A stretch of DNA of 64,000 bases from Corynebacterium atrinae. Lineage in GTDB: Bacteria; Actinomycetota; Actinomycetes; Mycobacteriales; Mycobacteriaceae. Location: positions 310,001-374,000 of the forward strand of contig NZ_CP046977.1 of the NCBI RefSeq assembly GCF_030408455.1, written 5' to 3'. Position 1 is the stretch's first letter. Every line of letters starts with the position of its first letter. The notes beneath the pieces were generated by a model, which was not told the DNA's origin, did not search any database, and saw only the letters and a list, made by a program, of their open reading frames with translations. A program made the translations under genes and the position numbers. Below are positions 11,665 to 30,074 of the stretch, piece after piece.

Positions 11665-13023
11665 GTGAAGGTTAACGTGAGTGTGCTCGTCGTGGGAATG
11701 TCGCACCGATCGGCGCCGGTGGCGTTGCTCGAGCGACTGAGCATGGACGAGACGGTGCGGGAAGATACCACCACCAAGCTCATTAATTGCCCTGCGCTCA
11801 GCGAGGCGATGATCGTCTCCACGTGTAACCGGCTGGAGATTTACTCGGTCACTAATTCCTTCCATTCTGGGGTGCAGGATGTCGTGGAGGTGTTGCACGA
11901 GATCTCGGATGTGGATATCGATACTCTGCGTGGCTACCTCTATGTTCGCTACGCCGACGCCGCCGCGGAGCACATGATGGTCGTGGCTTCGGGGTTGGAT
12001 TCCATGGTGGTGGGGGAGCAGCAGATTATTGGCCAAGTGCGCACGGCGTACCAGGAGGCCAGTGAGAAAGGGACGGTCGGTCCGGCGTTGCATTCGTTGG
12101 CCCAGTCGGCGTTGCATACCGGCAAGCGGGTGCATTCTGAGACCGATATTGATGACGCCGGGGCGTCGATGGTGTCGGTCGCGGTGGATGAGGCGCTGGA
12201 GCACCTGGGCACTGATCAGCTGACCGGACGCACCGCCTTGGTCCTGGGTGCGGGGGCGATGGCCTCGCTGGCGGCTACGCACCTGGGGAAGCTGGGCGTC
12301 GATAAGCTGATTATCGCCAACCGCACGCGATCGCGGGCGGAGCGTCTCGCCGAGCATTCGCGGGAGGCCGGCGTGCCGGCCGAGGTGGTGGATTTCGCGG
12401 ATCGGGCGGCGGTGCTGTCGCGGGTTGACCTGGCGGTATCGGCGACGGGTGCGGATGATTTCACCATTACCCCGGCGGATATTCCCCGCGATCGGGTGGA
12501 TAATCTCACTCTCATTGACCTGTCGATGCCCCGCGATATCGACGACGACACGGCGCAGTTGCAGGGCGTGCACCTCGTCAACATTGAGCGGCTGCACAAG
12601 ACAATGTCGGGGCGCGGCGATCACGCGACGGGACATCAGGAGGCGCTGGGGATCGTCGCCGAGGAGCTACACGCTTATAGCTCTGAACAGCGGGTTCGTG
12701 ATGTGGTGCCGGCGGTGGCCGCATTGCGCAAGCACGCTTCCGAATTGGTGGACACGGAGTTGGAGCGCCTGCGGGCGCGGACTCCGGCGATTGATTCTCC
12801 GGAGTTTGAGGAGGTGACGCGGACGGTGCGGCGGGTCGTCGATAAGCTGCTGCACCAGCCGACGGTGCGGGTGAAGAAGTTGGCCGCCGAGTCCGGTGTC
12901 GTGTCCTATGAGTCTGCCTTGCAGGAGTTGTTTGGCTTGGCCGCGGATGGGCCAGCGGTGGCAATTGATGTCGCTGACCTGCCGGAAGGCAAGGTCGGAA
13001 TCAACGAGAAGGAACAGAAATGA
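11665..13023 (+). CDS. hemA: Glutamyl-tRNA reductase
   Basis: Reduces glutamyl-tRNA(Glu) to glutamate-1-semialdehyde with NADPH, the committed step of C5 heme synthesis. About 450 residues. The catalytic Cys is in [26 protein letters not shown] and the NADPH loop [16 protein letters not shown] are present. The C-terminal dimerisation helices end at residue 452. The GTG at 11665 gives [11 protein letters not shown]; the GTG at 11677, preceded by AAGG, gives [11 protein letters not shown] and is an equally good start. The stop overlaps the hemC ATG (ATGA), so the two are translationally coupled. It is first in a hem series running to hemL. Confidence 0.96.
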
Positions 13024-13907
13024 CCCTGAAGATCGGTACGCGCGGCTCGAAGCTGGCCACCACCCAGTCCGGCCACGTGCGTGAGGCGTTGGCTGCCCAT
13101 GGCTTCGACGCCGAGTTGCACATCGTGACCACGGCCGGCGACGTCAATATGGCGCCCGTGGAGCGCATCGGGGTTGGCGTGTTCACGCAGGCGCTGCGCG
13201 AGGCCATGGTGGCCGGCGAGTGCGACATTGCGGTGCATTCCTTCAAGGACTTGCCGACGGCCCCCGATGAGCGCTTCCACCTCATCGTCCCGGTGCGTGC
13301 CGACGCCCGCGAGGCCCTCATCGCGCGCGATGGCCTCACCCTCGCCACCCTCCCGGAGGGGGCAAAGGTGGGCACCTCCGCGCCCCGCCGCATCTCCCAG
13401 CTCCGCGCGCACCGCCCTGACCTGGAGATCCTGCCCCTACGGGGCAACATTGATACGCGCATGGGCAAGGTCACCTCCGGCGAGCTCGATGCCGTCGTCC
13501 TGGCCTACGCCGGGCTCTCCCGCGTCGAGCAGGGCTACCGCGCAACGGAAGTCTTCAGCCCCGAGGTCATCCTCCCGGCCCCCGCGCAGGGCGCGTTGGC
13601 CATCGAGTGCCGCGCCGACGACGAGGAGGCCCGCCGCGCCATCGATTCGCTTATCGACGCCGCCGCCTACACTTGTGCGATCGCCGAACGCATCGTCCTC
13701 AATCGACTGGAGGCGGGCTGCACCGCCCCCGTCGCGGCACATTCCACTTTGGAGGGCGAGACCATCACCCTCACCGCTGGGGTGTTCGCTCTCGACGGAT
13801 CGGCACAGCTTAAGCACAGTGCCTCCGGGACCGACCCGGTCGAGCTGGGGGAGCAGATTGCCCGCCAGCTCATCGAGGACGGCGCCGCCGAGGTCATGGC
13901 GAGGTAA
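13020..13907 (+). CDS. hemC: Hydroxymethylbilane synthase (porphobilinogen deaminase)
   Basis: Condenses four porphobilinogen units to hydroxymethylbilane. 295 residues. N-terminal substrate segment [13 protein letters not shown], the Arg-rich stretch [32 protein letters not shown], and the dipyrromethane-attachment region [14 protein letters not shown] with its Cys all match the family. The start overlaps the hemA stop by 4 bp. No oddities. Confidence 0.97.
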
Positions 13908-14458: not shown

Positions 14459-16147
14459 ATGAGCATGGCTCCCCAGACCTCCCAGCCGGGAAAGGTCGTC
14501 TTCGTTGGCGCTGGCCCTGGCAACCCCGATCTGCTCACTATCCGTGCCCGCGAGGTGCTTTCTTCGGCGATCATTGCCGTCACAGATGCAGCTGTCCTCC
14601 CAGGCGTGCGTGAGGTCGTGGCTGCTGCTCTGCCAGTGCCTCAGGAGAAGCTGGATGCCGCGGAGCGGGAATACGAGCGCATCTGTGCTGAGGCCAAGGA
14701 AGCCGGGGCTCGCCGCCGTCCCGCGCGTCCCGCCGAGCCCACCGCCGCCGATATTCGTGAGCCCGTTGGATCTACCCCCGATGAGGTGGCCGCGCAGTTG
14801 CGTGATGCCCTCGCCGAGGAACAAGGTGATGTCATCCGCCTCGTCACCGGTAACCCGTTGACCCGGGATCAGACGATGGCGGAGATCGCCGCTGTCGCTG
14901 GCCTTGGCCTGGAGTTTCAGGTGGTGCCGGGCATGTCTCTGCCGTCCACGGTGCCCTCTTTTGCGGGTATCGCGTTGGGCTCGACCTACACCGAAACCGA
15001 TGTCACGGAGAACAACGTCGACTGGGATCAGCTGGCCAGTGCCCCGCAGCCGCTGGTGCTGCAGGCGGCCGATGAGAACTTGAGCACGATTGCCACGGAG
15101 TTCATTTCCCGCGGCATGAGCCCGGACACTCCGGTCTCAGTCACCGTCAACGGCACCACCCGCTTGCAGCGCACCCACGATGCGACGTTGGGTACCTTGG
15201 GCCGCCTCGACGTTGAGCTGGGTGGCCAGCTGGTGGTCACCCTCGGTAAGGGAGTGGACGACCGCACGAAGTACTCCTGGTGGGAAAACCGCCCGCTGTA
15301 CGGCTGGCGCGTGTTGGTGCCGCGCACCAAGGAGCAGGCTGCGTCGATGAGCGCGCGCCTGTCCTCATACGGCGCCATTCCGCAGTCCGTGCCGACGATC
15401 TCTGTCGAACCGCCGCGCAACCCCGCGCAGATGGAACGCGCGATCAAGGGCATCGTTGAAGGCCGGTACCAGTGGATCGTGTTCACCTCCGTCAACGCGG
15501 TGTCCGCGGTGTGGGAGAAGATCAATGAGTTCGGCCTCGACGCCCGCTCCTTCGCTGGCGTTCATTTGGCCGCCGTCGGTTCCAAAACTGCCGACGCCAT
15601 CCGCGAGCTGGGTATGACGCCAGAGCTGCTGCCGCCGTCGACGAAGCAAAACGCAGCCGGATTGGTCGAAGTCTTCCCCGACTATGTCGAGGAGCTTGAT
15701 CCGGTGGGTCGCGTCCTGCTGCCCCGGGCCGACATCGCCACCGATGTGCTTGTCGACGGCCTGGTGGAGGCCGGGTGGGAAGTCGACGATGTCGTCGCCT
15801 ACCGGACAGTCCGGGCCGCTCCGCCGTCGGCGGAGATCCGCGAAATGATCAAGTCGGGCGGCTTTGACGCCGTGTGCTTTACGTCGTCGTCGACGGTGAA
15901 GAACCTGGTGGGCATCGCCGGTAAGCCGCATCAGCGCACCATCATCGCCTGCATTGGTCCCATGACGGAGGCCACTGCGAAGGAGATGGGCCTGCGGGTC
16001 GACATAGTTCCCGCTACCGCCGAGGTGCCCGATCTTGTCGACGCCCTGGCCAACCACGTGGCCAACCTCCGTGCGGCGGGGCAGTTGCCACCGCCGAAGA
16101 AGAAGCGCCGCGCACGTCGCAAGCCAGTGGCAGTAGACAAGGACTGA
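14459..16147 (+). CDS. hemD: HemD fusion: degenerate SUMT-like domain plus uroporphyrinogen-III synthase
   Basis: 562 residues. The second half (from about residue 275, LYGWRVLVPRTKEQAASMS) is uroporphyrinogen-III synthase, which closes hydroxymethylbilane with inversion of ring D; VFTSVNAVSAVWEKINEFG and CFTSSSTVKNLVGIAG are typical. The first half has a tetrapyrrole-methylase fold: VVFVGAGPGNPDLLTIRA fits motif 1, but the GDPF-x-FGRG-x-E block is replaced by VTGNPLTRDQTMAE, and the following RG-x-A-x-S-type region is altered. It is therefore probably not an active methyltransferase. Similar fusions exist in related actinobacteria (Rv0511). The C-terminus is a basic tail (KKKRRARRKP). Confidence 0.92.
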   Translation: MSMAPQTSQPGKVVFVGAGPGNPDLLTIRAREVLSSAIIAVTDAAVLPGVREVVAAALPVPQEKLDAAEREYERICAEAKEAGARRRPARPAEPTAADIREPVGSTPDEVAAQLRDALAEEQGDVIRLVTGNPLTRDQTMAEIAAVAGLGLEFQVVPGMSLPSTVPSFAGIALGSTYTETDVTENNVDWDQLASAPQPLVLQAADENLSTIATEFISRGMSPDTPVSVTVNGTTRLQRTHDATLGTLGRLDVELGGQLVVTLGKGVDDRTKYSWWENRPLYGWRVLVPRTKEQAASMSARLSSYGAIPQSVPTISVEPPRNPAQMERAIKGIVEGRYQWIVFTSVNAVSAVWEKINEFGLDARSFAGVHLAAVGSKTADAIRELGMTPELLPPSTKQNAAGLVEVFPDYVEELDPVGRVLLPRADIATDVLVDGLVEAGWEVDDVVAYRTVRAAPPSAEIREMIKSGGFDAVCFTSSSTVKNLVGIAGKPHQRTIIACIGPMTEATAKEMGLRVDIVPATAEVPDLVDALANHVANLRAAGQLPPPKKKRRARRKPVAVDKD

Positions 16148-16210: not shown

Positions 16211-17236
16211 GTGACTGACCAGCATTCTGCCCCCCTGCACGTTCCCGCCCCCGCGCGCCGCCCCCGCCGCTTGCGGCTGAATCCGGCGATGCGGGAATTC
16301 GTAGCTGAGACAACCTTGCGTCCCGCGGACCTCATCTTGCCGATGTTCATCGCCGACGGCATCGACGCACCCCGGGACATTTCTTCCATGCCGGGCGTCC
16401 AACAGCACACGTTTGATTCCTTGAAGGCCGCGGCCCACGAGGCGCTCGACGCCGGGGTGCGCTGCGTTGACCTCTTCGGCGTCCCGCTCGATGCGGATAA
16501 GGACGCGGAGGGTTCGCCGGCGTGGAAGCAGGAGGGCATCCTCAATCGCGCTCTCCGCGAGCTGCGGGCGGAGTTCGGCGATGATCTGCTCATCATGGCC
16601 GATACGTGCCTGGACGAGTTCACCGACCACGGGCACTGCGGCGTGCTGTCGCAGGACCGGTGGGGACGGGTGGTCGTCGATAATGATGCAACGCTGACCC
16701 GGTATCAGCGGATGGCGGTGGCCCAGGCCGACGCCGGGGCGCACATCGTTTCCCCTTCGGGGATGATGGACGGCCAGGTCCTGGCGATTCGGGAGGCGCT
16801 GGATGGTGCCGGGCACGAGGATGTGTCCATCATGGCCTATTCCGCCAAATACGCCTCCGCCTTCTACGGGCCCTTCCGCGAGGCCGTCGGCTCATCCTTG
16901 GAGGGCGATCGCCGCACCTACCAGCAGGATCCCGCCAACTTGCGTGAGTCTCTGCTTGAGGTGGAACTCGACATCGATGAGGGCGCCGACTTCGTCATGG
17001 TCAAGCCAGCCCTGCCGTACCTCGATGTGTTGCGCGCGGTGGCGGACGCCTCCCCGGTGCCAGTCGCCGCGTACCAGGTATCCGGCGAATACTCGATGAT
17101 TCAGGCCGCCGGTCGCAATGGGTGGATCAACCTGGAGGCAGTGATGATGGAATCATTGACCTCTATTAAGCGGGCCGGTGCCGACCAGATCCTCACCTAC
17201 TTTGCCACCGACGCTGCCCGGGCCCTTCATGTCTGA
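16211..17236 (+). CDS. hemB: Delta-aminolevulinic acid dehydratase (porphobilinogen synthase)
   Basis: Joins two 5-aminolevulinate molecules into porphobilinogen. 341 residues, GTG start at 16211. The two Schiff-base lysines are K213 ([11 protein letters not shown]) and K265 ([12 protein letters not shown]), 52 residues apart as in E. coli. The metal segment reads [16 protein letters not shown]: the middle Cys of zinc enzymes (CLC) is Asp here, so a magnesium-type or mixed site is likely. The 3' end overlaps the next gene by 8 bp. Confidence 0.96.
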
Positions 17237-17783
17237 CACTGAGAAGACTGAGAAGACCGAGAAGACCATGCCGCCGGAGTCGGTGCGGCTCATGGTGTGG
17301 TTGTTCGCCTTCGCTGTAGGTGGGGAGGTTCTCCACCAGATCCTCAATGTGACCATCTCCTTCATTGATCCCTCCGCGCTCATCGCCGCGGCCAAGGAGC
17401 AGACGGACCCGCAGCGGTTGGAGTCCATCGGGGACACCGGCGTACGTCTGGCGGCCTACGGCTCGGTGCTGTTCATGGGAGCGCTGAGTCTGGCAATCAT
17501 GGGCCTGCTCACGTGGATGATCTTCGCCCTGTGGCGGCGCTCCCGCTTCGCCGGGACGGCCCGCCGGATGCTGCTGGTCTTCGGGTTCTACTTCGGGTTC
17601 CGCGTGATGATGCTGTTCATGGTCACACCTGGCGGGACGAATGTACCCGTGGCACTGTATGTCGTAGATGGAATCGTGCAGATCCTCGTGGGTGTCGCCG
17701 CCGTCATGGGAGTGTTCCTGACGTTCAAGGAAGACACCCTGAAGTGGACTCGCGAACTGCCCGTGGCCAAAGACAGGAGCTGA
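17229..17783 (+). CDS. Four-helix membrane protein in hem cluster
   Basis: 184 residues from the ATG at 17229, overlapping the hemB 3' end by 8 bp. After a short charged start ([13 protein letters not shown]) there are four hydrophobic segments: [58 protein letters not shown] and [20 protein letters not shown]. No catalytic motif is seen and I do not recognise the family. Tight coupling to hemB and position before the degenerate ATPase suggest a role linked to tetrapyrrole metabolism, but this rests on context only. Confidence 0.8.
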
Positions 17784-17792
17784 GATACGAGT

Positions 17793-18296
17793 ATGCCCAG
17801 CATGTTCCCTGGAATGTATCGTTCGCCGGATGATCCGAACCGGCGCCTGCGAAGCGACGGTGCCTCCGATCCCGCTGATGGGTCCTGGCCACCCGTGCTG
17901 CGCTGGGGTTACTGGGTGTGCGTCGCGGCGGCCATTTTCATGACTTTCTCGGGTCTGGTGATGTTCGCATTGCCCGTCGAGGATCGGGCCGGAGCCGCAC
18001 CCGAGGTCATTGAAGCTTTCCACCGCAATGTTCGTTTCGTGGCCATTTTCAACGTCGTCGCCGGAGTGCTCGTGGCCGCCCTGGCTGCGCAGCTGAAGTC
18101 CGCGGGCCTCGTCTCGCGCCGCGTCCTCATCGTCGTCATCGCTTTGGCCGTTTTCTGCAACGTCGCCGCCTTCGCCATCCAGGTCGGCGGGCTAGCCATG
18201 ATTGTCATCGTTATCCTCCTCGCCGTGGCCGCCTTCTTGGTGTTCCGCCCGGCATCCAATCGCTACTTTGCCCGCGCCAACGGCCGGAACTACTAG
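17793..18296 (+). CDS. Small four-helix membrane protein in hem cluster
   Basis: 167 residues, ATG at 17793, nine bp after the preceding gene. A Pro/Gly-rich cytoplasmic N-terminus of about 35 residues precedes four hydrophobic segments (YWVCVAAAIFMTFSGLVMFAL, FVAIFNVVAGVLVAALAAQL, RVLIVVIALAVFCNVAAFAI, LAMIVIVILLAVAAFLVF). Function unknown. Its stop is 10 bp before the P-type ATPase homologue, so these three genes probably form one transcription unit with hemB. Confidence 0.8.
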   Translation: MPSMFPGMYRSPDDPNRRLRSDGASDPADGSWPPVLRWGYWVCVAAAIFMTFSGLVMFALPVEDRAGAAPEVIEAFHRNVRFVAIFNVVAGVLVAALAAQLKSAGLVSRRVLIVVIALAVFCNVAAFAIQVGGLAMIVIVILLAVAAFLVFRPASNRYFARANGRNY

Positions 18297-18306
18297 TCTT
18301 CGAATC

Positions 18307-20940
18307 ATGAATAACCGCTATGACGATGTCGTCTCCTCGGCGATCGCTGAGGCGAGGACCGCTGCCCGGGCAGCCGGCTTCAACGACATCGATGAGGAGC
18401 GCACCCAGCCCGCCGATCCCTCCGAGCGACCCAAAGTGTCCTACGCCTTCGACCTCACGGGCTTGGACAATGCCCCCGACATCGCCGACATCGAAGCCGC
18501 GCTTGAGCAAATCCACGGGGTGCGCGCCCGCTTGGTCTACCCCAACGCCACCGCGTGGGTGACCGCTCCCGATACGGTGGACCCCAACGACCTGATCCTC
18601 GTCATCGAGAGCTTTGGAGTGGGGGCCGTGCTCACCGACAGCTCCTTGCGCCGCCGGATTATGCACTCCCACTCGGGGGAAGGGCCGCTGACCCAACGGG
18701 CTGAGGTTCGCCCCAAGCGCCGTCGTTCATCCATGTCGTGGAAGTTCCGCCGACATCTGGAGCAAGAGGCACGTATCCAAGAACGGGCGCGGCGCGCCGG
18801 GTTCTTGAATAGCTCCCAGGAAAGCCTGCGCGATCCGGAGGCCAAAGGGCGCCAGGACATTTTGTTCACCGCCCGTGATCTGCTCACACCCACCCGGCTG
18901 TTCATCACACTTGTGCTCACCTTGCCGGTGCTGTTGCTCACGTACTTCCAGTCCCTGCAATTCGATGGCTGGCAGTGGGTGACTCTGGGGTTGGCGTTGC
19001 CGGTGGTGACGTGGGGCGCGTGGCCCTTCCACCGGGCCATGGCTGGCGGAGTGCGTCGCGGTCTGACCGCGCTGGACGCTGCGAGCTCGGTCGCGATAAT
19101 CGCCGCCACGATGTGGTCGATGGTCATGCTGGTTTTCACCCCGGCGGGTGATCTCGGCTGGCGGACGACGCCGTCGTGGTTCGCCTTCGACCACAACCGC
19201 ATTGTCGACGGTGAGCTCTTCCTCGACGTCGCCTGCGGCATGACGGTGCTGTTGCTGGTCGGGCGGTTGCTCACCATGCGTAGCCGCGTCAGCCTGCTCG
19301 ATGAGCTGGATGCCCGCCGGCCCAGCCCCCATGAACTGGTTGAGGTGGTGCAGAAGAAAGCCACCAGTGGCGACGGCGGCGTGGCCGGGGTAACCAAAGA
19401 GAAGATTCCGCTGCAGGAAGTGAATGTTGGCGACGACATCAGCGTCGAAGAGGGCCAGATCATTCCGGTCGACGGCCAGGTCGTGGGCGGGTCCTGCATG
19501 GCGTCGCCGGGCTTGTTCGGCTCGGGTCCGGCCGATATTCAGGACGTCAAGGTTAATTCCTACGTCTACGCCGGGACGAAGAACCTGCGGGGGCGCATTA
19601 AGGTGCGTGCTGCATACACCGGGCACGGCACTCGCCTGACCGCTATTCGCCGCTGGGTCTTCGCCGCGAACCAGAAGCAGATCCAATCAACGTTGCTGTC
19701 TACTCGTACCGCCGCAATGCTGATCCCCGCTGCTTTCGGTATCGCCGTCCTCGATTTCTTGTTGTGGGTGCTCATCGCCGGCAACTTCAACGCGGCCTTC
19801 GCCACGTCCCTGGCGGTGCTTGCTTCGGTCGCGCCGGTCGCAATTGCTTTGTCGCCAGCCTTGGCTATCCGCAACGGTATTGAATCCGCCGCCCGCAACG
19901 GCGTGCTTATTCGCGATGGAAGCATCGTGCGGGTGATTGAAAACATCGACACGGTGATCTTCAACCGAGTAGGCACGCTGGCGGAGACCGGCATGACCGT
20001 GGAGACGGTCACCGCCGACCGGGGAGAAAACCCCGAACTGGTGCTGCGCGTGGCCGGGGCTCTGGCCATGGAATCCGATCATCCCGTCTCCCGCGCCTTG
20101 GTCCGGGCGGCACGCGAGGCCCGCGACTTCGGTACCGGCGGTGAGGAAGTCCCCCACTGGATCGACGTCAGCCACTTTGAGATCGGGCCCGAGGGAGACT
20201 TCCGCGGACACATCGAGCTGCCAGTTACCGACGACAGCGGGCACGTGAGTATGCAGCCGATGGAGGCCCGGTTGTGGCGACCGCTCAACATGTCTCAGCT
20301 CCAGGGGCGTCTGGCAGCGGCGGCAGTCTCCGGCGGTACGCCATTGGTCGTGCGCTGGAAAGGACGTGATCGGGGCGTGATTACCCTGCGCGATACGGTC
20401 AAGGATGACGCCGAGGAAGCAATCCATGACCTGAGCGACATGGGGATTGAAACGATGATGCTGTCCCGCGATACCTACCCCGTGGCGCGCCGCATTGCCG
20501 ACCGCATTGGCATCGACCACGTTCTCGCGGGCATTGCTCCGGGCAAGAAGGCCCAGGCAGTGCGCTCGGTGCATACCCGCGGGGCGACAGTCGGCATGGT
20601 GGGGGATGCGTCGGTGCTCAGTTCCCTGCGGGTGGCGGACGTGGGCATCCTCATGGGAACGGATGCCCAGGTTGATCGCATCGCGCATTCCGAACACCCA
20701 GACGTCGACGCGATTGTCCTGCGCCCGGATGTCACGGCGATCCCGCAGCTCATCGTTCACTGTCGGCGTATCTGCCGGATCATTGACCGCAACATCGTGT
20801 TCGCCTGGACCTACAACGGCCTGGCTGTGCTGGCCTCGATCGCTGGCGTGCTTCATCCGATGGCGGCGACGGTCCTCATGCTGGGCTCCTCCCTCATTAT
20901 TGAGGCGCGCTCGAACCGGGCGCGAGTGTTCCGCCGCTAG
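18307..20940 (+). CDS. Degenerate P1B-type ATPase homologue lacking catalytic Asp
   Basis: 877 residues, laid out like a heavy-metal P-type ATPase (CtpA/CtpB class). N-terminus: an HMA-like fold (about residues 40-105) without CxxC. Then membrane segments and an actuator-like domain (NVGDDISVEEGQIIPVDGQV) with no TGES loop. The membrane CPC metal motif reads ALSPALA (S516-P517). The phosphorylation motif DKTGTLT reads FNRVGTLAE, so the phosphorylated Asp is Asn553. H592 of the HP motif (ESDHPVSRAL) is kept. The hinge GDGxND reads GDASVLS, keeping only the first Asp (D767). Overall fold and length are preserved with no stops, arguing for a maintained pseudoenzyme. I chose ATG 18307, 10 bp after the preceding gene. 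Any role in heme or metal handling is inference. Confidence 0.88.
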   Translation: MNNRYDDVVSSAIAEARTAARAAGFNDIDEERTQPADPSERPKVSYAFDLTGLDNAPDIADIEAALEQIHGVRARLVYPNATAWVTAPDTVDPNDLILVIESFGVGAVLTDSSLRRRIMHSHSGEGPLTQRAEVRPKRRRSSMSWKFRRHLEQEARIQERARRAGFLNSSQESLRDPEAKGRQDILFTARDLLTPTRLFITLVLTLPVLLLTYFQSLQFDGWQWVTLGLALPVVTWGAWPFHRAMAGGVRRGLTALDAASSVAIIAATMWSMVMLVFTPAGDLGWRTTPSWFAFDHNRIVDGELFLDVACGMTVLLLVGRLLTMRSRVSLLDELDARRPSPHELVEVVQKKATSGDGGVAGVTKEKIPLQEVNVGDDISVEEGQIIPVDGQVVGGSCMASPGLFGSGPADIQDVKVNSYVYAGTKNLRGRIKVRAAYTGHGTRLTAIRRWVFAANQKQIQSTLLSTRTAAMLIPAAFGIAVLDFLLWVLIAGNFNAAFATSLAVLASVAPVAIALSPALAIRNGIESAARNGVLIRDGSIVRVIENIDTVIFNRVGTLAETGMTVETVTADRGENPELVLRVAGALAMESDHPVSRALVRAAREARDFGTGGEEVPHWIDVSHFEIGPEGDFRGHIELPVTDDSGHVSMQPMEARLWRPLNMSQLQGRLAAAAVSGGTPLVVRWKGRDRGVITLRDTVKDDAEEAIHDLSDMGIETMMLSRDTYPVARRIADRIGIDHVLAGIAPGKKAQAVRSVHTRGATVGMVGDASVLSSLRVADVGILMGTDAQVDRIAHSEHPDVDAIVLRPDVTAIPQLIVHCRRICRIIDRNIVFAWTYNGLAVLASIAGVLHPMAATVLMLGSSLIIEARSNRARVFRR

Positions 20941-20984: not shown

Positions 20985-22058
20985 ATGGACGCTATGACTC
21001 GCCGCACCCTCATCGACGCCCCGCTTCTCGACGCCGCTGTCCCCGGCCGCACCCCCACCCGCACCCCCGTCTGGTTCATGCGCCAGGCCGGCCGTTCCCT
21101 GCCGGAATACCGGCAGGTTCGGGAGGGCATCGACATGCTCGATTCTTGTTTCATGCCGGAGCTGTTGGCGGAGATCACCATGCAGCCGGTGCGCCGTCAC
21201 GATGTTGACGCGGCGATCTTGTTCTCCGACATCGTCGTGCCGCTGAAAGCGGCCGGCGTCGGGGTGAACATTGTGGCGGGCCGCGGACCGGTGATGGATA
21301 GTGCCATCCGGAGCCGCGCGGACGTCGATAAGCTGGCCATCCTGGAGGCGGACGTGCCGGAAGTGAGTGCCGGGATCGAGATCATCCTCGACGAGCTGAC
21401 TGACTCGCAGGCCCTCATCGGTTTCGTGGGGGCGCCGTTTACGCTGGCCAGCTACCTAGTGGAGGGTGGGCCGAGTAAGAACCACGAGAAGACGAAGGCC
21501 ATGATGCACAGCGAGCCCGAGACGTGGCACGCCCTCATGCGTCGCCTGACGCCGACGATCATTCGCTTCCTGCAGCTGCAGATCGACGCCGGAATTGACG
21601 CCATGCAGCTGTTCGATTCCTGGGCGGGGTTCCTCACCGAGCGCGATTATCGCGAGTTCGTGCTGCCGTATTCCACCGAGATCCTTGCCGCTATCGAGGA
21701 CGCCGGCATTCCCCGCATCCACTTCGGCGTGGGTACCGGCGAGCTGCTTGGTGCCATGAGCGAGGCCGGTTCCGAGGTCATGGGAGTGGATTGGCGAGTC
21801 CCGCTGGACCAGGCCGCCGCGCGGATCAACGCGGTGAGCGGGCCGAAGGTGCTGCAGGGCAACCTGGACCCGGCGATGCTGTTCGCTGGGCGTAGCGTGG
21901 TGGAGCGGGAGGTCGCGCGCATTAAGTCCGAGGCGGCCGCCGCCATTGCCGCAGGTGATGCCACCGGCCACATTTTCAACCTCGGCCACGGCGTCTTGCC
22001 CACCACCCCGGCGGAGGCCATCACCGAGGCCGTCGCCATCGTTCACGGAGAAAACTAG
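20985..22058 (+). CDS. hemE: Uroporphyrinogen decarboxylase
   Basis: Decarboxylates the four acetates of uroporphyrinogen III to give coproporphyrinogen III. 357 residues. The N-terminal signature PVWFMRQAGRSLPEYR with its catalytic Arg residues is intact, as are ILFSDIVVPLKAAG and GFVGAPFTLASYLVEGG. FNLGHGVLPTTP lies near the C-terminus. ATG at 20985; a second in-frame ATG is at 20994. The stop overlaps the hemY GTG by one base (TAGTG). Confidence 0.97.
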   Translation: MDAMTRRTLIDAPLLDAAVPGRTPTRTPVWFMRQAGRSLPEYRQVREGIDMLDSCFMPELLAEITMQPVRRHDVDAAILFSDIVVPLKAAGVGVNIVAGRGPVMDSAIRSRADVDKLAILEADVPEVSAGIEIILDELTDSQALIGFVGAPFTLASYLVEGGPSKNHEKTKAMMHSEPETWHALMRRLTPTIIRFLQLQIDAGIDAMQLFDSWAGFLTERDYREFVLPYSTEILAAIEDAGIPRIHFGVGTGELLGAMSEAGSEVMGVDWRVPLDQAAARINAVSGPKVLQGNLDPAMLFAGRSVVEREVARIKSEAAAAIAAGDATGHIFNLGHGVLPTTPAEAITEAVAIVHGEN

Positions 22059-23443
22059 TGCGCTACGCCATCATCGGAGCCGGTCTCGCCGGCCTCGTCA
22101 CTGCTACCGAGATCCGCCGCGCGGACGCCGACGCCGCCATCGATGTCTTCGAGGCCGAGGACCGCATTGGCGGCAAGCTGTTCACCGTGCCCTTCGCCTC
22201 CGGGCCGACGGACATGGGCGCCGAGGCCTACCTCGCCTTCCGCTCGGATGCGACCGACTACTTCGAAGGCCTGGGGTTGGGTGAGCTGCTGCGCTACCCC
22301 TCGGACCTGCGCTCGCTCGTCTATTCCGGCGGCCAGACGCGGGCACTGCCCGCCGTCGGCGTCATGGGCATTCCGTCTAGCTCCGAGCCGATCGCCCATC
22401 TGGTCTCGGCGGAGACCGCCTCGCGTATCGACGCCGAAGGGGACCAGGACAGCATCACCTGGCCGGTCGGCGGGGACCTCAACTTGGGTGCTTTGATCCG
22501 CGAGCGCTATGGCGACGAGGTCGTTGACCGCGTGGTGTCCTCCCTGCTCGGTGGGGTGTACTCCTGCCTCGCCGATGACCTGGGCGTGCGTGCGACGGTG
22601 CCGCAGTTGGCGTTGGCCTTCGACGCACTGGCTGAGGCTGGTGAGAAGGTCACGTTGTCGGGGGCGGTGGCGCGGGTGGAATCCCAGCGCCCGGCTCGCA
22701 GTGGTGACCCGAAGCCAGTGTTCGCCTCCTTCGACGGCGGGTACGCGGTTGTCTATGAGGCCCTTGCCGAGGCATCTGGCGCCGACATTCACCTTGATGC
22801 CTTCGTCTCGGGCGTGACCCGCGGAGTGGGCGGCTTCACCATCACTGGGGCGGGCGAAGGCACCTACGACCGCGTCGTCTTTGCCACTCCGGCGCCGACG
22901 ACCGCGATGCTGCTGCGTTCGCTGTCCCCGGAGGCGTCGGCGGCGCTGAAGTCCATCAAGCTGGCCTCCTCCGTCGTCGTGGGCATGAAGTTCGATTCCG
23001 CCGAGGGCCTGCCGGACAACTCCGGCGTGCTCGTCGCCGCCGATGAGCCCGGTGTGCGGGCCAAGGCTTTTACCCTGTCGTCGAAGAAATGGCCCCACCT
23101 GAGTGAACGGGGCGGTGCCTTCGTGCGCGCCAGCTTCGGCCGCTTCGGCGACGATGAGATCGTGCGCGCCGACGAAGACGACCTCGTCGACTGGGCCCTG
23201 GATGACCTGCAGACGGTTACTGGTTTCGACGGCCGCGAGGCCGGGCTGGCGGAGATCTACGTCCAGCGCTGGTTCGGCGGCTTGCCCCGCTACGACGAGA
23301 CCCACCTGGCCACCGTGCAGGCCGTGCGTTCCGAGCTGGCCTCAGTCCCGGGGGTCGAGGTCACCGGGGCCTGGGCTGGGGGAGTGGGGGTCCCGGCGGT
23401 CATCGCCGACGCCCGCGCGACCGTCGCCCGTTTGCTAGGCTGA
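22058..23443 (+). CDS. hemY: HemY/CgoX-type coproporphyrinogen (protoporphyrinogen) oxidase
   Basis: FAD enzyme that aromatises the porphyrinogen ring. In actinobacteria this protein uses coproporphyrinogen III (CgoX) in the coproporphyrin-dependent route. 461 residues. N-terminal dinucleotide loop YAIIGAGLAGLVTATEI, then VFEAEDRIGGKLFTV; C-terminal FAD region EVTGAWAGGVGVPAVIADA. The GTG start overlaps the hemE stop by one base. The terminal ferrochelatase and HemQ genes are not in the window. Confidence 0.94.
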   Translation: MRYAIIGAGLAGLVTATEIRRADADAAIDVFEAEDRIGGKLFTVPFASGPTDMGAEAYLAFRSDATDYFEGLGLGELLRYPSDLRSLVYSGGQTRALPAVGVMGIPSSSEPIAHLVSAETASRIDAEGDQDSITWPVGGDLNLGALIRERYGDEVVDRVVSSLLGGVYSCLADDLGVRATVPQLALAFDALAEAGEKVTLSGAVARVESQRPARSGDPKPVFASFDGGYAVVYEALAEASGADIHLDAFVSGVTRGVGGFTITGAGEGTYDRVVFATPAPTTAMLLRSLSPEASAALKSIKLASSVVVGMKFDSAEGLPDNSGVLVAADEPGVRAKAFTLSSKKWPHLSERGGAFVRASFGRFGDDEIVRADEDDLVDWALDDLQTVTGFDGREAGLAEIYVQRWFGGLPRYDETHLATVQAVRSELASVPGVEVTGAWAGGVGVPAVIADARATVARLLG

Positions 23444-25221: not shown

Positions 25222-25824
25222 ATGAGCACCACGATCGTCCACCTCGTACGCCACGGCGAGGTCCATAATCCCGACAAGATCCTGTACGGAACGATCCCCG
25301 GCTACCACCTGTCCTCGCGGGGCCGCTCCCAAGCTGCCCGCACGGCCCGCTCCTTCGAGGGCCACGACGTCACCTACCTGGGTGCCTCGCCCTTGCAGCG
25401 GGCACAGGAAACCTCCGAGCCCTTCGCCGAGATCACTGGGCTCGAGGTGGACACGGTGGACGGGATCGTCGAGGCGGGCAACCGTTTCGAGGGCCTGCGC
25501 ACCAAGGGCTGGCGCTCCCAGTTGTGGAACCCGGTCCGCTGGCCGCTCATGCTCAACCCCATCGAGCCGAGCTGGGGCGAGGCCTACGTGGATATCGCCG
25601 AGCGGATGATGAAGGCCGTCGAGCGGGCGCGCGCTCAGGCGGAGGGGCACGAGGCCATCCTCATTAGCCATCAGCTTCCCATCGTCATGGTGCAGCGTGC
25701 CGCTCGGGAGCTGCCGTTGGCCCATGCCGGGCGGGAATGCGACCTCGCCTCCGTCACCTCCTTGGTGTTCGATGGCGCGGAGATCACCGACATTTTCTAT
25801 TCCACTCCGGCGAAGGACATCTGA
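25222..25824 (+). CDS. Histidine phosphatase (phosphoglycerate mutase-like) protein
   Basis: 200 residues. The catalytic loop is VHLVRHGEVHNPD with RHG at the N-terminus; the second His is in ILISHQLPIVMVQRA, and an acid lies in SWGEAYVDIAERM. This is the broad-specificity phosphatase branch rather than glycolytic mutase, which is larger. AAGGAACC precedes the ATG at 25222. It sits between hemL and the cytochrome c maturation genes as in C. glutamicum and M. tuberculosis. Substrate unknown. Confidence 0.9.
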   Translation: MSTTIVHLVRHGEVHNPDKILYGTIPGYHLSSRGRSQAARTARSFEGHDVTYLGASPLQRAQETSEPFAEITGLEVDTVDGIVEAGNRFEGLRTKGWRSQLWNPVRWPLMLNPIEPSWGEAYVDIAERMMKAVERARAQAEGHEAILISHQLPIVMVQRAARELPLAHAGRECDLASVTSLVFDGAEITDIFYSTPAKDI

Positions 25825-25829
25825 CCGGG

Positions 25830-26423
25830 ATGCGCCTGAAAACCGTATCCGTGGTTCTTGCCGCGGCCTTGACCCTGAGCGCCTGCACCGCCGATGGTGA
25901 TGCCGCGAAGAATGCCGTCGCCGTCGGTGGTACCTTCCAATTCCACTCGCCCGGCGGCCAGGTAGAGATCTTCTACCCGGAGTCCGAGCGGGCGCCGTTG
26001 CCGAGCTTCACCGGCGAGTCCCTCACCCAGGAGGGCCAGGAGATCAGCCTCGATGATTTCGCTGGCGAGGTCGTCGTCCTTAACGCGTGGGGGCAGTGGT
26101 GTGCCCCCTGCCGTTCCGAGGCTGATGACCTCCAGGTTGCCCACGAGGAGCTGCAGAAGGTGGGCGGCACCGTCCTGGGCATCAACGTGCGCGACTACAA
26201 CCAGACCATTGCGCAGGACTTCCTCACCGACAACGGCCTGACCTACCCGTCGATCTATGATCCGCCGTTTAGGACCGCGGCCGTCCTCGGTGGCGTGCCG
26301 GCGTCCGTCATTCCGACGACGATCGTGCTGGATAAGCAACACCGCCCGGCCGCCGTCTTCCTCCGGGAGGTCACCTCCACCGATATTCTCGACGTCGCCC
26401 TTCCCTTGGCCCAGGAGTCCTAG
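25830..26423 (+). CDS. Thioredoxin-like lipoprotein of cytochrome c maturation (ResA/CcsX-like)
   Basis: 197 residues. The N-terminus MRLKTVSVVLAAALTLSACT is a lipoprotein signal (LSAC). The thioredoxin fold carries WGQWCAPCRSEADDL and the cis-Pro segment VPASVIPTTIVLD. In system II it reduces apocytochrome c cysteines before heme attachment, using electrons from CcdA. It starts 5 bp after the preceding gene and its stop overlaps the CcdA start, giving a tight operon. Confidence 0.92.
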   Translation: MRLKTVSVVLAAALTLSACTADGDAAKNAVAVGGTFQFHSPGGQVEIFYPESERAPLPSFTGESLTQEGQEISLDDFAGEVVVLNAWGQWCAPCRSEADDLQVAHEELQKVGGTVLGINVRDYNQTIAQDFLTDNGLTYPSIYDPPFRTAAVLGGVPASVIPTTIVLDKQHRPAAVFLREVTSTDILDVALPLAQES

Positions 26424-27235
26424 TGGTCGACGTGGTACTGGCCCAGGGTCTGGGACAACAATTTGCCGACGCCGCCGCCTCCGGCCCACTGTTGCTCGGT
26501 ATCCTCGCCGCCGCGGCGGCGGGACTGGTGTCATTCGCCTCGCCCTGCGTCGTTCCCCTCGTGCCTGGGTACATGTCCTACTTGGCGGGCATCGTTGGCG
26601 GTGAGATGACCATGGACGGCCGACATGGGCCGGTCGTCGCTAAGAAAAGGCAATGGGCGGTGGCCAGTGCCGCATTGTTGTTCATCCTCGGATTCACCGT
26701 GGTGTTTGTGCTGGCCACGGTGACGGTATTCGGGGCGATCAGTGCGCTGACGCTCAACGCTGAGACCCTCATGCGGGTCGGAGGCGTGATCACCATCCTC
26801 ATGGGCATCGTCTTCATGGGCCTGGTGCCCGTGCTCCAGCGCGATACGCGCATGGCGCCGAAACGCTGGACCACGTGGCTGGGCGCCCCGCTGCTGGGCG
26901 GAGTGTTCGCCCTCGGCTGGACCCCGTGCCTGGGGCCGACGCTGGCGGCCATCATCTCCGTATCCGCCGGCACCGAAGGCATGACTGCTGCCCGGGGTGT
27001 CATCCTCATCATCGGCTACTGCCTTGGGCTGGGGCTACCCTTCCTGCTCGTAGCGCTGGGCTCGGCCCGGGCGATGCGCACCATCGGATGGCTGAGCAAG
27101 CATTCGCGCGCCATCCAGATCACCGGCGGCGTGCTCATGATCCTCGTCGGGCTGGCCCTGGTGACCGGCGCGTGGGCGGAGTTCATCAACTGGGTGCGGC
27201 AGTGGACCGTGGAGTACGGCGCAACCTTGATCTAG
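26423..27235 (+). CDS. ccdA: CcdA cytochrome c biogenesis membrane protein
   Basis: Carries reducing equivalents from cytoplasmic thioredoxin across the membrane to the ResA-like protein. 270 residues with about six helices. The two redox cysteines are in FASPCVVPLVPGYMSYLAG (helix 1) and GWTPCLGPTLAAI (helix 4), the DsbD-family pair. GTG at 26423 overlaps the TAG of the preceding gene by one base. Confidence 0.95.
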   Translation: MVDVVLAQGLGQQFADAAASGPLLLGILAAAAAGLVSFASPCVVPLVPGYMSYLAGIVGGEMTMDGRHGPVVAKKRQWAVASAALLFILGFTVVFVLATVTVFGAISALTLNAETLMRVGGVITILMGIVFMGLVPVLQRDTRMAPKRWTTWLGAPLLGGVFALGWTPCLGPTLAAIISVSAGTEGMTAARGVILIIGYCLGLGLPFLLVALGSARAMRTIGWLSKHSRAIQITGGVLMILVGLALVTGAWAEFINWVRQWTVEYGATLI

Positions 27236-27265
27236 CCGCATGGCGGATCAACAACCAATCTAGGA

Positions 27266-28927
27266 ATGGAAGACAAACCGATGCGGATCGTCGTCACCTA
27301 CCTCAACAAGGCCTGGCACTGGCTCACCAGCATGCGCACCGCCCTGGTCCTGCTGTTCCTCCTGGCCATCGCCGCCATTCCCGGTGCCCTCCTGCCGCAG
27401 CGCAGCCTCAACGAGGAGAACGTCACCGAGTACATCGCCAACAACGGCCGCCTCGCTGAGATCTACGACAAGCTGCAGCTTTTCGACGTCTTCTCCTCCG
27501 TCTGGTTCGTTGCCATCTTCGTCCTCCTCACGATTTCCCTCGTCGGCTGCATCCTCCCGCGCACCTGGGATCACTGGAAGGCCATGAACACCCCGCCCAC
27601 CCGGGCGCCGAAGAACCTTCACCGCCTGCCCCTGCACGCCTCCGGCGTATCCGACAAGCCCCTCGACGAAGTGGCCGCCGATGCCCGTCGCCTGCTGAAG
27701 AAATGGCACGTCTCGGAATACCAGCCGTCGGAAGACCGGGCTGGCGCCTTTTCCCTCGCCGCCGAGCGGGGCTACGCCCGCGAGGCCGCCAACCTGCTCT
27801 TCCACCTCGGCTTGGTCGGCATGCTCATCACCATCGCCGCCGGTCGCCTCGTCTACTACGAGGGCCAAGTCATCGTGGTCACCGAATCTGGCAACTACGA
27901 GACCCCGGAGATTACCCAAAACACGGAGTTCTGCAACACCTCCACCGCCAACTTCGACTCCTTCCGCGCCGGTGCGCTGTTCGACGGCACCGGACTGACC
28001 ACCTTCTGCTTCGACGCCCACGACTTCTCCGCGGACTACCTCCCCAATGGCCAGGCCGAAATGTTCACCTCGAACATCTCCTGGGCCGCCGGAGATGACA
28101 TCCTCACCCCGAAGGATCAGTGGCAGGACTACCAGCTGAAGGTCAACCACCCGCTGCGCATCGACGGCGACCGCATCTATCTCCAGGGCCACGGCTACGC
28201 CCCGACCTTCACCGTCACCTGGCCGGACGGCGAATCCCGCACCCAGACCATCCAGTGGCGCCCCGATGATCCGACCTTCTTCCTCTCCTCCGGCGTCATG
28301 CGTTTCGATCCCCCCGCCGGTATGTACCCCGACCTCTACGAGCGCCGCCAGAACCAGATCGCCATCCAGGGATTGTTTGCCCCCACCGCGCAATGGGATG
28401 GTGAAAAGGGTGAATTGCTCACCTCCCAGTACCCAGCAATGCGCGATCCGGCCGTGGCCATCGATGTCTACCGTGGCGACGCCGGCCTGGACACCGGCCG
28501 CGCCCAGTCCATCTTCAGCCTCGACCCCTCGCTCTTGCACTCGGGCCAGCTACAAAAGATTGAGCGCGTGAACCTCACCCAGGGGGAATCCGTCACGCTT
28601 GATGATGGCACCGTGGTTACTTTCGACGGCGCCAGCGAATTCGCGAACTACCAAATCTCCCGCGATCCTTTCCAGCCGTGGGTGCTGGTGACCGCGTCGA
28701 TCATGCTGATTTCCCTCGTCGGTTCCCTGGTGATCAAGCGCCGCCGCATCTGGGTGCGCCTGCGCCCGGCCGCCGATGGCACCACGCTCGTCGAGCTCGG
28801 CGGCCTGGCGCGAACCGACCGCGCCGGCTGGGGTAGCGAGTTCGACACGATCCACCGCGAGCTTCTTGGCCTGCCCGATCCCGATGAGTTGGACGATGAG
28901 GATGGGCTGTACGACGACCGCGACTAA
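27266..28927 (+). CDS. resB: ResB cytochrome c synthase subunit
   Basis: 553 residues. System II heme-ligation partner of CcsA. Membrane segments near residues 22-40 (ALVLLFLLAIAAIPGALLPQ), 78-100 and 175-195, a large extracytoplasmic domain of about 250 residues, and a final helix (VLVTASIMLISLVGSLVIK). LPQRSLNEENV after the first helix is typical of ResB. ATG at 27266; an in-frame ATG at 27281 is an alternative. A 130-bp gap with its own promoter separates it from ccsA. Confidence 0.94.
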   Translation: MEDKPMRIVVTYLNKAWHWLTSMRTALVLLFLLAIAAIPGALLPQRSLNEENVTEYIANNGRLAEIYDKLQLFDVFSSVWFVAIFVLLTISLVGCILPRTWDHWKAMNTPPTRAPKNLHRLPLHASGVSDKPLDEVAADARRLLKKWHVSEYQPSEDRAGAFSLAAERGYAREAANLLFHLGLVGMLITIAAGRLVYYEGQVIVVTESGNYETPEITQNTEFCNTSTANFDSFRAGALFDGTGLTTFCFDAHDFSADYLPNGQAEMFTSNISWAAGDDILTPKDQWQDYQLKVNHPLRIDGDRIYLQGHGYAPTFTVTWPDGESRTQTIQWRPDDPTFFLSSGVMRFDPPAGMYPDLYERRQNQIAIQGLFAPTAQWDGEKGELLTSQYPAMRDPAVAIDVYRGDAGLDTGRAQSIFSLDPSLLHSGQLQKIERVNLTQGESVTLDDGTVVTFDGASEFANYQISRDPFQPWVLVTASIMLISLVGSLVIKRRRIWVRLRPAADGTTLVELGGLARTDRAGWGSEFDTIHRELLGLPDPDELDDEDGLYDDRD

Positions 28928-28977
28928 CCCCGGTGGGGGTAGCCCATCAAAAGATGGATCAATGTCTCGGTCAAGGG

Positions 28978-29007
28978 TTGGAACCCATTAGTGGGGTGCG
29001 GTAGCCT
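28978..29007 (+). promoter_or_regulatory. Candidate promoter for ccsA
   Basis: TTGGAA at 28978-28983 and TAGCCT at 29002-29007, 18 bp apart, about 50 bp before the ccsA ATG in the gap after resB. Confidence 0.4.
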
Positions 29008-29057
29008 CACAAAGGTATCTGCCTAGCTCCACCGACTGTGAGGGTGTTTAAGAGTCC

Positions 29058-30074
29058 ATGCCTGTCAATCAGACTCTCGCTAGTTTTTCCGACACCGCGT
29101 TCATCACGGCGCTCATCATCTACCTGGGCGCCCTCGTGCTGTCCATGGTCTACTACGTGAAGATGCTCAGCGTCGTTGATGCCCGCCGGGTGCTGAGCAA
29201 CGTCGAATCTAAGCAGCTGGTCTCGGTAGGGGCCGGAGGCTCCGATTCTGCCGAGGCGAGCGCTGAAAATACCGCGGAGACCATCACCGAGGATGAGCTC
29301 CATCGCCGCGAAGCCGCCGCCAACAAGTGGGGTGGCATGACCCAGTCACTCGTGTGGCTTGGTGTCGTCGTTCACGTCGCCTCCGCCGTCATGCGTGGCC
29401 TGGCCACCGATCGCTTCCCCTTCGGCAACCTCTACGAGTACGTCCTCGTCATCACCGGTTTCACCATGGTCGGCGCCGCGATCGTCATCCAGCGCAAAGA
29501 GTGGCGCATCGTCTGGCCCTGGCTGCTGGTTCCCGTTCTGGCCCTCATGTTCTTCGGTGGCACCAAGCTCTACTCCGATGCCGCTCCAGTCGTACCGGCC
29601 CTGCAGTCCTTCTGGTTCCCGATCCACGTGTCCACCGTCTCCATCGGCGCCTCGATCGGCATGCTCTCCGGTATCGCCTCCTTGCTCTACCTGCTGCGCA
29701 TCTGGCAGCCCCGTGGTCAAGAACGCGGCTTTTTCGGCGCGCTGGCCAAGCCCCTGCCTAGTGCCAAGAAGCTCGACGCACTGGCCTACAAGTCCGCCAT
29801 CTTCACCCTCCCCATCTTCGGACTCGGCGTCGTGCTCGGCGCCATCTGGGCCGAAGCCGCGTGGGGTCGATTCTGGGGCTGGGACCCGAAGGAAACAGTC
29901 TCCTTCATCACGTGGATCCTCTACGCCGCCTACCTCCACGCCCGTGCGACGGCGGGTTGGCGAGACCACAAGGCAGCCTGGATCAACATTCTCGCCCTGG
30001 CCACGATGGTCTTTAACCTCTTCTTCATCAACATGGTCGTCTCCGGGCTGCACTCCTACGCTGGGTTGAATTAG
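29058..30074 (+). CDS. ccsA: CcsA cytochrome c synthase subunit
   Basis: 338 residues, multi-helix. The heme-handling Trp-rich WWD-type motif is present as WGRFWGWDPKETVSFITWILYA, followed by AAYLHARATAGW; conserved His residues occur in VVHVASAV and FPIHVSTVSIG. With ResB it exports heme and attaches it to apocytochrome c, for example that of the bc1 complex, outside the membrane. The N-terminus has a hydrophobic helix and a charged linker of about 70 residues. Confidence 0.94.
   Translation: MPVNQTLASFSDTAFITALIIYLGALVLSMVYYVKMLSVVDARRVLSNVESKQLVSVGAGGSDSAEASAENTAETITEDELHRREAAANKWGGMTQSLVWLGVVVHVASAVMRGLATDRFPFGNLYEYVLVITGFTMVGAAIVIQRKEWRIVWPWLLVPVLALMFFGGTKLYSDAAPVVPALQSFWFPIHVSTVSIGASIGMLSGIASLLYLLRIWQPRGQERGFFGALAKPLPSAKKLDALAYKSAIFTLPIFGLGVVLGAIWAEAAWGRFWGWDPKETVSFITWILYAAYLHARATAGWRDHKAAWINILALATMVFNLFFINMVVSGLHSYAGLN

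Follow-up and report, generated by a model that had tools for sequence, protein, structure and literature searches.

A P1B-type ATPase relative in the heme gene cluster of Corynebacterium that is very probably a conserved pseudoenzyme

Human TMEM94 (ERMA), described by cryo-electron microscopy, has a P-type ATPase fold without TGES and with no nucleotide at the site; its ATPase activity was not detected, its shape was nearly constant over six conditions, and it bound adenosine-5′-(β,γ-methylene)triphosphate (AMPPCP) with micromolar affinity (PMC12134183). Its status is disputed, as another group argues, in the part of the article available to us, that it is a Mg ATPase (PMC13322241). TMEM94 is the nearest parallel that we found to the product of a gene of Corynebacterium atrinae that we call PST, which lies in a stretch of 64,000 nucleotides (positions 310,001 to 374,000 of contig NZ_CP046977.1, or G000:C1:310001-374000, in a genome of 2.8 Mb) referred to below as the window. 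We consider it very likely that PST is a conserved pseudoenzyme, since it has an enzyme fold, its catalytic residues have been lost across the clade, and it is under purifying selection. TMEM94, which belongs to the human endoplasmic reticulum, differs from it in that it has ten membrane helices and that the proposed site carries an Asp, D417 (PMC12134183), whereas PST is bacterial and of the P1B type, and Asn is fixed there in every member seen.

18307..20940, plus strand: pseudo-P1B-ATPase gene (PST), 877 amino acids, recognised from its open reading frame and its homologues

By sequence, the best solved relatives of PST are copper pumps. With the P1B-1 copper ATPases (CopA; PDB 7r0g, 3rfu; ATP7B), it shares the fold, the domain order, the platform helix and, in the model, eight membrane helices, together with the YN of M5, the MxxSS of M6, the P-domain Lys and, in most members, the HP motif. 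It differs from them in having no DKTGT, TGE, TGD, GDGxND, CPC or CxxC, and in carrying a Trp in the ATP pocket and a frozen, Arg-bearing pocket in the P domain. Two further comparisons come from Corynebacterium glutamicum. ChrS, a pseudokinase of heme signalling, is catalytically dead yet works in the heme response, according to the available part of its description (PMC9491836); it is a frameshift variant of a histidine kinase from laboratory evolution and, judging by the kind of protein, is unrelated to PST in sequence. CopB and CtpV, P-type ATPases of this related species, are putative copper exporters at other loci and are set apart by their description in the accessible part of PMC3140484. 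A literature search over titles and the starts of abstracts returned no paper on this gene and none on a bacterial pseudo-P-type ATPase, most subscription journals lying outside the search, and the available parts of PMC6160403, PMC12327846, PMC10991733 and PMC10654040 held nothing on this gene.

Membership in the P1B family is supported by several observations. The open frame is unbroken over its 877 residues, and the Pfam models E1-E2_ATPase (PF00122, residues 361-531, 89.3 bits against a cut-off of 28.1) and Hydrolase (PF00702, residues 547-768, 50.7 bits against 26.4) both score above their thresholds, in line with an earlier note on this DNA that had described an uninterrupted 877-residue frame with the layout of a heavy-metal ATPase. 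The general NCBIfam model TIGR01494 is also passed (114.2 bits, cut-off 62.3), while the heavy-metal subfamily model TIGR01525 falls short at 279.3 bits for a cut-off of 346.25; the predicted structure has the fold and topology of a P1B ATPase, with eight membrane helices by our own assignment. In all, 497 proteins match PST at E 1e-10 or better, the closest named one among the matches listed being from Corynebacterium testudinoris (92%) and orthologues from C. deserti and C. callunae being listed too, and homologues appear in public records as “heavy metal translocating P-type ATPase” or “copper-exporting P-type ATPase”. PST is P1B by descent and fold, yet it lacks the catalytic features considered below, and the name “metal-translocating ATPase” is therefore inappropriate for it. 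Two further E1-E2 ATPases are encoded in the same genome, and each of them has DKTGT.

Residues were compared in an alignment of the best 120 of the 497 matches, and column by column between 71 distinct orthologous open reading frames (ORFs), from the window and other loci, and 102 other P1B ATPases; broken orthologues from two assemblies (L102, L197 and L219 in G356; L104, L201 and L218 in G310) fell outside the score or length limit of the column comparison. Among the 125 columns in which at least 95% of the pumps share one residue, the majority residue of the orthologues is the same in 78 and different in 47, and the latter include the catalytic D-K-T, the E of TGE, the G of TGD and the ND of GDGxND. 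With 47 of 125 pump-conserved columns differing and a ratio of nonsynonymous to synonymous substitution rates (dN/dS) far below 1, the changes exceed chance. The altered sites are as follows.

18433..18642, plus strand: HMA-like N-terminal domain (residues 43-112), beta-alpha-beta-beta-alpha-beta in the full-length model, without CxxC
19519..19530, plus strand: site of the lost TGE loop in the A domain (residues 405-408), from alignment and column comparison
19831..19839, plus strand: A509-P510-V511 replacing CPC in M4, from alignment and column comparison
19960..19980, plus strand: FNRVGTL (residues 552-558) replacing DKTGT[L/V], with N553, R554 and G556 invariant
20272..20283, plus strand: LWRP (residues 656-659), with W657 replacing a Gly found in 101 of 102 pumps
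20464..20472, plus strand: S720-R721-D722 replacing TGD, with R721 and D722 invariant
20602..20619, plus strand: GDASVL (residues 766-771) replacing GDGxND, from sequence and column comparison

The phospho-acceptor position, which is Asp in all 102 comparison ATPases, is Asn in 71 of 71 ORFs and in 120 of 120 aligned homologues, where residues 554 and 556 are likewise always R and G. The motif changes are therefore D553N, K554R and T555V, PST has no phosphorylatable Asp of the DKTGT kind, and the earlier placement of Asn553 at this site was correct. The TGE dephosphorylation motif is lost, as the earlier note had said of TGES, in a stretch where the alignment is gappy, and TGD reads S/T-R-D across the family, its Gly having become R721. 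Because GDASVL stands where GDGxND would be, the N and the last D are missing (positions N769 and D770), with the first, D767, retained in 67 of 71; previously, only the second Asp had been recorded as absent. In the N domain, E587 has changed, mostly to A or S, and W657 stands at what is presumably the GN motif of the ATP pocket.

The metal path is altered to a similar extent. Position 509, the first Cys of CPC, is A or G, and the motif is mostly A/G-P-V; the second Cys position, which varies among pumps, has V in 102 of the 120 homologues and Cys in none, and no CPC, CPH, CPS, SPC or TPC occurs anywhere in the 120 homologues, so that M4 has no CPx motif. The earlier note was right that CPC is lost, but the SPA that it put in its place (residues 516-518) lies further along than the aligned residues A509-P510-V511, and position 517 varies (P in 59, T in 37, A in 15 and S in 9 of 120), while P510 is present in 120 of 120. 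No CxxC was found within the first 200 residues of any of the 120 homologues, which agrees with its account of the HMA-like domain; such a motif is not present in the N-terminal HMA domain of every P1B ATPase. When folded alone without an alignment, this domain gave a poor model. M256 and E323, which we take to be the metal-entry Met and Glu, are replaced by L in 71 of 71 and by T or S, respectively. As read from these alignments, the residues for phosphorylation, dephosphorylation, Mg binding and metal gating, and much of those for ATP binding, are gone across the clade, and ATP-driven pumping is very probably absent.

Other parts of the protein have been retained, or have become fixed in a new form.

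19021..19059, plus strand: MB platform helix WPFHRAMAGGVRR (residues 239-251), within the most conserved stretch of the family
19234..19236, plus strand: Cys310 in M2, 71 of 71 in the family, where pumps mostly have A, S, V or L
20080..20085, plus strand: H592-P593 in the N domain, present in most members (H592 69/71, P593 53/71)
20548..20550, plus strand: K748, the P-domain Lys, 71 of 71
20812..20817, plus strand: Y836-N837 in M5, as in copper pumps (Y836 71/71, N837 70/71)
20878..20892, plus strand: MLGSS (residues 858-862) in M6, as in copper pumps (M858 70/71, S861 60/71)

In the platform helix, G248 (the second Gly of the GG kink) and R250 are invariant, and P510, G395 and D722 (71/71) are also retained relative to the pumps. 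The statement that only the HP motif is normal was thus too strong, since K748, D722, D767, Y836/N837, M858 and S861 are retained as well, and P593 itself is kept in merely 53 of 71. New residues present in 71 of 71 are R554, R721, Y724, C310, W450, K432, R522, A514 and S516, with E866, W618 and W657 nearly fixed. The old catalytic pocket has been remodelled and frozen (N553, R554, R721, D722, K748), and by the column comparison the site that binds phosphate and Mg in pumps lacks its acceptor and has gained two Arg, from Lys (R554) and from Gly (R721). Columns that are at least 99% conserved make up 6 of the 14 in the pocket and 92 of 877 overall (p 0.0017), a value that serves as a guide only because the 14 columns were picked after the alignment had been viewed. 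The predicted fold is E1-like.

Purifying selection on PST is strong. Between the window and its nearest relative, L034, the Nei-Gojobori dN/dS is 0.053 over 875 codons (0.017-0.110 by domain), and the same pair gives 0.044 for hemB (145 codons), 0.069 for m2, a small upstream membrane protein gene, and 0.089 for hemE; the 25 closest other pairs listed, several of which are the same organism from two collections, range from 0.016 to 0.146. The earlier note had set beforehand that a DKTGT orthologue at the same locus, or a dN/dS near 1 with scattered stop codons, would point to recent decay. We saw no active homologue at the locus among 120 homologues and 71 ORFs, all with Asn, and dN/dS is far below 1; recent decay was rejected on this basis, and the proposal of a maintained, non-catalytic protein held.

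With the threshold set at E 1e-90, 185 of 242 Corynebacterium genomes have PST, each with a single match. Outside the genus, nothing exceeded 289 bits in a search of 121 genomes (50 genera) of the order, where all 29 loci examined (L005-L033) carry DKTGT; at comparable scores, all 16 matches in 251 genomes of the family came from the genus of the window, and 296 genomes (115 genera) of the class gave only the window's own match, although a divergent, lower-scoring relative may exist elsewhere. Viral contigs searched for PST gave no match. The presence of orthologues in many assemblies led us to reject chance or mis-assembly. A quick tree that set 24 members beside 52 other P1B ATPases placed the members in one clade (support 100, stem 1.27 changes per column); the nearest pumps are mostly of the CPC type, and the exact sister group is unsure, since the members and the CPH-type rows both drew long-branch flags. 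Seven listed genus matches contain one stop codon each inside the aligned stretch, and in the four of them that were examined (L055, L059, L061, L062) the score of the open frame by itself comes within 2 bits of that of the full match, which puts the stop at the C-terminal end. Broken frames occur in two assemblies, G356 and G310; in L102 (Corynebacterium wankanglinii zg-913) and L197, PST is split over several frames, through either decay or sequencing error. Mapped on a hemE tree with 76 rows counted, presence or absence changes four times, or three by our reading without L191, which was scored as absent even though its interval is a run of N.

The gene lies within a cluster of heme biosynthesis genes, whose names we take to apply from similarity and position.

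11665-13023: hemA
13020-13907: hemC
14459-16147: hemD-type gene
16211..17236, plus strand: hemB, first gene of the surrounding block
17229..17783, plus strand: small membrane protein m1, its ATG overlapping the hemB stop
17793..18296, plus strand: small membrane protein m2, ending 10 bp before PST
20985..22058, plus strand: hemE, starting 44 bp past PST
22058-23443: hemY
from 23895: hemL

PST had been placed between hemB and hemE, and it is flanked in this way, except that m1 and m2 intervene after hemB. The row is tightly packed: the m1 start codon overlaps the hemB stop at 17229-17236 (ATGTCTGA), and m2 and PST follow at spacings of 9-10 bp. After the hem genes come tlpA-, ccdA-, resB- and resC-like cytochrome c assembly genes (25737-30074), in an order that recurs in related loci. 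Fusion to a neighbour was rejected, as the seven members longer than 905 amino acids have tails at the N terminus that match neither m1 nor m2.

One of the locus searches covered the best 80 of 597 loci. Across 32 named Corynebacterium loci, hemB precedes PST in 32 and hemE follows it in 24. In three of the other eight, the contig ends downstream of PST (L086, where a further 2.7 kb is present, L095 and L104), with hemL still seen in L095; in L096, L099, L100, L101 and L113, the next tested gene is hemL, and no hemE occurs in the stretch examined. Thus, hemE-hemY may have joined or left the block within the genus, and PST lies inside the hem-ccs block even where these genes were not found beside it. 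Conversely, 57 genomes gave no match at 1e-90; the hemE region was read in 37 of them, the other 20 being outside the sample, and 34 were judged, leaving L189 and L190 (no hemB near hemE) and L191 (the run of N). In all 34, PST was not found and the hemB-to-hemE block is otherwise there, m2 often ending within 100 bp of hemE; in L188, about 0.9 kb between m2 and hemE was checked by tblastn only. These absences, together with the few changes on the hemE tree, make PST an optional yet long-lived member of the block. In L195 (G194), hemE matches in two separate pieces.

HemB itself carries the motif DTCLDEFT[D/S/A/T]HGHCG in the window (16211-17236) and in 66 related loci, which looks to us like a mix of Zn and Mg types. 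Its Cys and Asp letters are the same with PST (32 loci) and without it (34), so metal supply to HemB was rejected as a function; the ninth letter alone differs, being D in 31 of 32 loci with PST and 13 of 34 without, which may reflect clades alone. In C. glutamicum, the accessible part of one report describes a 3.6-4.6-fold increase of hemL, cg0519, cg0520, ccsA and ccsB under copper excess (PMC3140484), and that of another describes binding of HrrA at hemE (cg0516), which suggests that the gene beside PST is under its own heme control (PMC7337898).

By sequence, the members form a single clade under strong purifying selection that has lost its catalytic and metal-gate residues, remodelled its pocket into an invariant one and retained the platform and the M5/M6 motifs. 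The loss of the pump parts, yet with strong selection across most of the genus, makes another job probable. Taking the evidence as a whole, we favour a pseudo-P1B-ATPase reused as a membrane-anchored receptor or scaffold, with a probability of roughly 0.4. The hem-ccs position, which is also compatible with the earlier note's idea of a heme or metal sensor or of a scaffold for heme enzymes, and the response of this cluster to copper in C. glutamicum point to a link with the heme or copper supply of respiration, for which we see about even odds, and that the protein acts as a receptor or scaffold rather than in another mode is a tentative choice, held a little less firmly. Several points weigh against this interpretation. 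All 34 of the judged genomes that lack PST have the rest of the block, which shows that the hem genes can do without it there; stable gene order is weak evidence in Corynebacterium; and the constant Cys and Asp letters of HemB give no sign of service to its metallation. The model is not uniformly E1, as 8q73 (HMA4, E1 apo) aligns at a root-mean-square deviation of 8.5, like some E2 entries, and AlphaFold2 (AF2) may favour E1 for any P1B protein. Moreover, the three-fold copper-excess list, in the part of the source available, spans hemL (cg0518) to ccsB (cg0524), without hemE (cg0516), hemY (cg0517) or lower cg05 numbers (PMC3140484).

Other explanations draw on the same observations. PST could be a sensor of copper or another metal rather than a heme partner, the M5/M6 ligands and Cys310 binding the metal within the membrane and the protein reporting copper supply to the cytochrome assembly encoded downstream. 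The near-invariance of Y836, N837 and M858 (70-71/71) and of C310 (71/71), with S861 in 60 of 71, would fit this, as would the mostly CPC-type nearest pumps, the copper response of the hemL-ccs genes and the tlpA-, ccdA-, resB- and resC-like genes of the cluster; we nevertheless hold it to be rather unlikely, as both Cys positions of CPC, the entry Met and an entry Glu are gone and there is no CxxC. A similarly low likelihood attaches to a structural scaffold with a function outside heme, for instance in the cell envelope, whose position among the hem genes would be incidental. A gene gained once, early on, and then inherited vertically would have a constant position as well, and the block is otherwise in place without the gene, but PST is still in the hem-ccs block where hemE-hemY was not found adjacent. 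Less plausible is an ATP-independent channel or carrier whose membrane part passively moves metal, porphyrin or lipid; eight predicted membrane helices, an invariant M4 proline (P510) and the case of TMEM94, which has no detected ATPase activity and holds lipid in its membrane part (PMC12134183), agree with it, but no result indicates an open path or a substrate site.

A still active ATPase with another phospho-acceptor seems very improbable: K748, D722, D767 and H592 are retained in 67-71 of 71, but the phospho-acceptor, K-T, TGE, the G of TGD, ND and N-domain pocket residues have changed across the clade. Even less credit can be given to a decaying or selfish leftover hitchhiking in the operon, for which one could cite the three or four changes on the hemE tree, the broken frames in G356 and G310 and the single inner stops of the seven listed matches; dN/dS values of 0.016-0.146, an invariant pocket and a C-terminal stop in the four of these seven that were checked all argue the other way.

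If PST is a receptor or scaffold, it would presumably stay in an E1-like state. That state might be set by an anion in the N553/R554/R721/K748 pocket, either a metabolite or a phosphate group, by metal or heme at the level of M5/M6 and Cys310, or by a partner protein at the platform, and it would be passed on by protein contact, tuning the supply of heme or cytochrome. In its most specific form, which we regard as doubtful, a P-type ATPase would have turned once, early in the genus, into a receptor: the former phosphate/Mg pocket, now an invariant Asn-Arg-Arg-Asp-Lys anion site, would sense heme or one of its precursors, a phosphorylated metabolite or a partner, and the retained platform and the A and P domains would relay this to the machinery for heme and cytochromes.

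By default, P-type ATPases are regarded as pumps, and this clade suggests that their fold can be reused without ATP; it also advises caution against inferring metal export from family names alone. Given its location in a heme cluster, in a genus with a good laboratory species, the function of PST could be tested by simple deletion.
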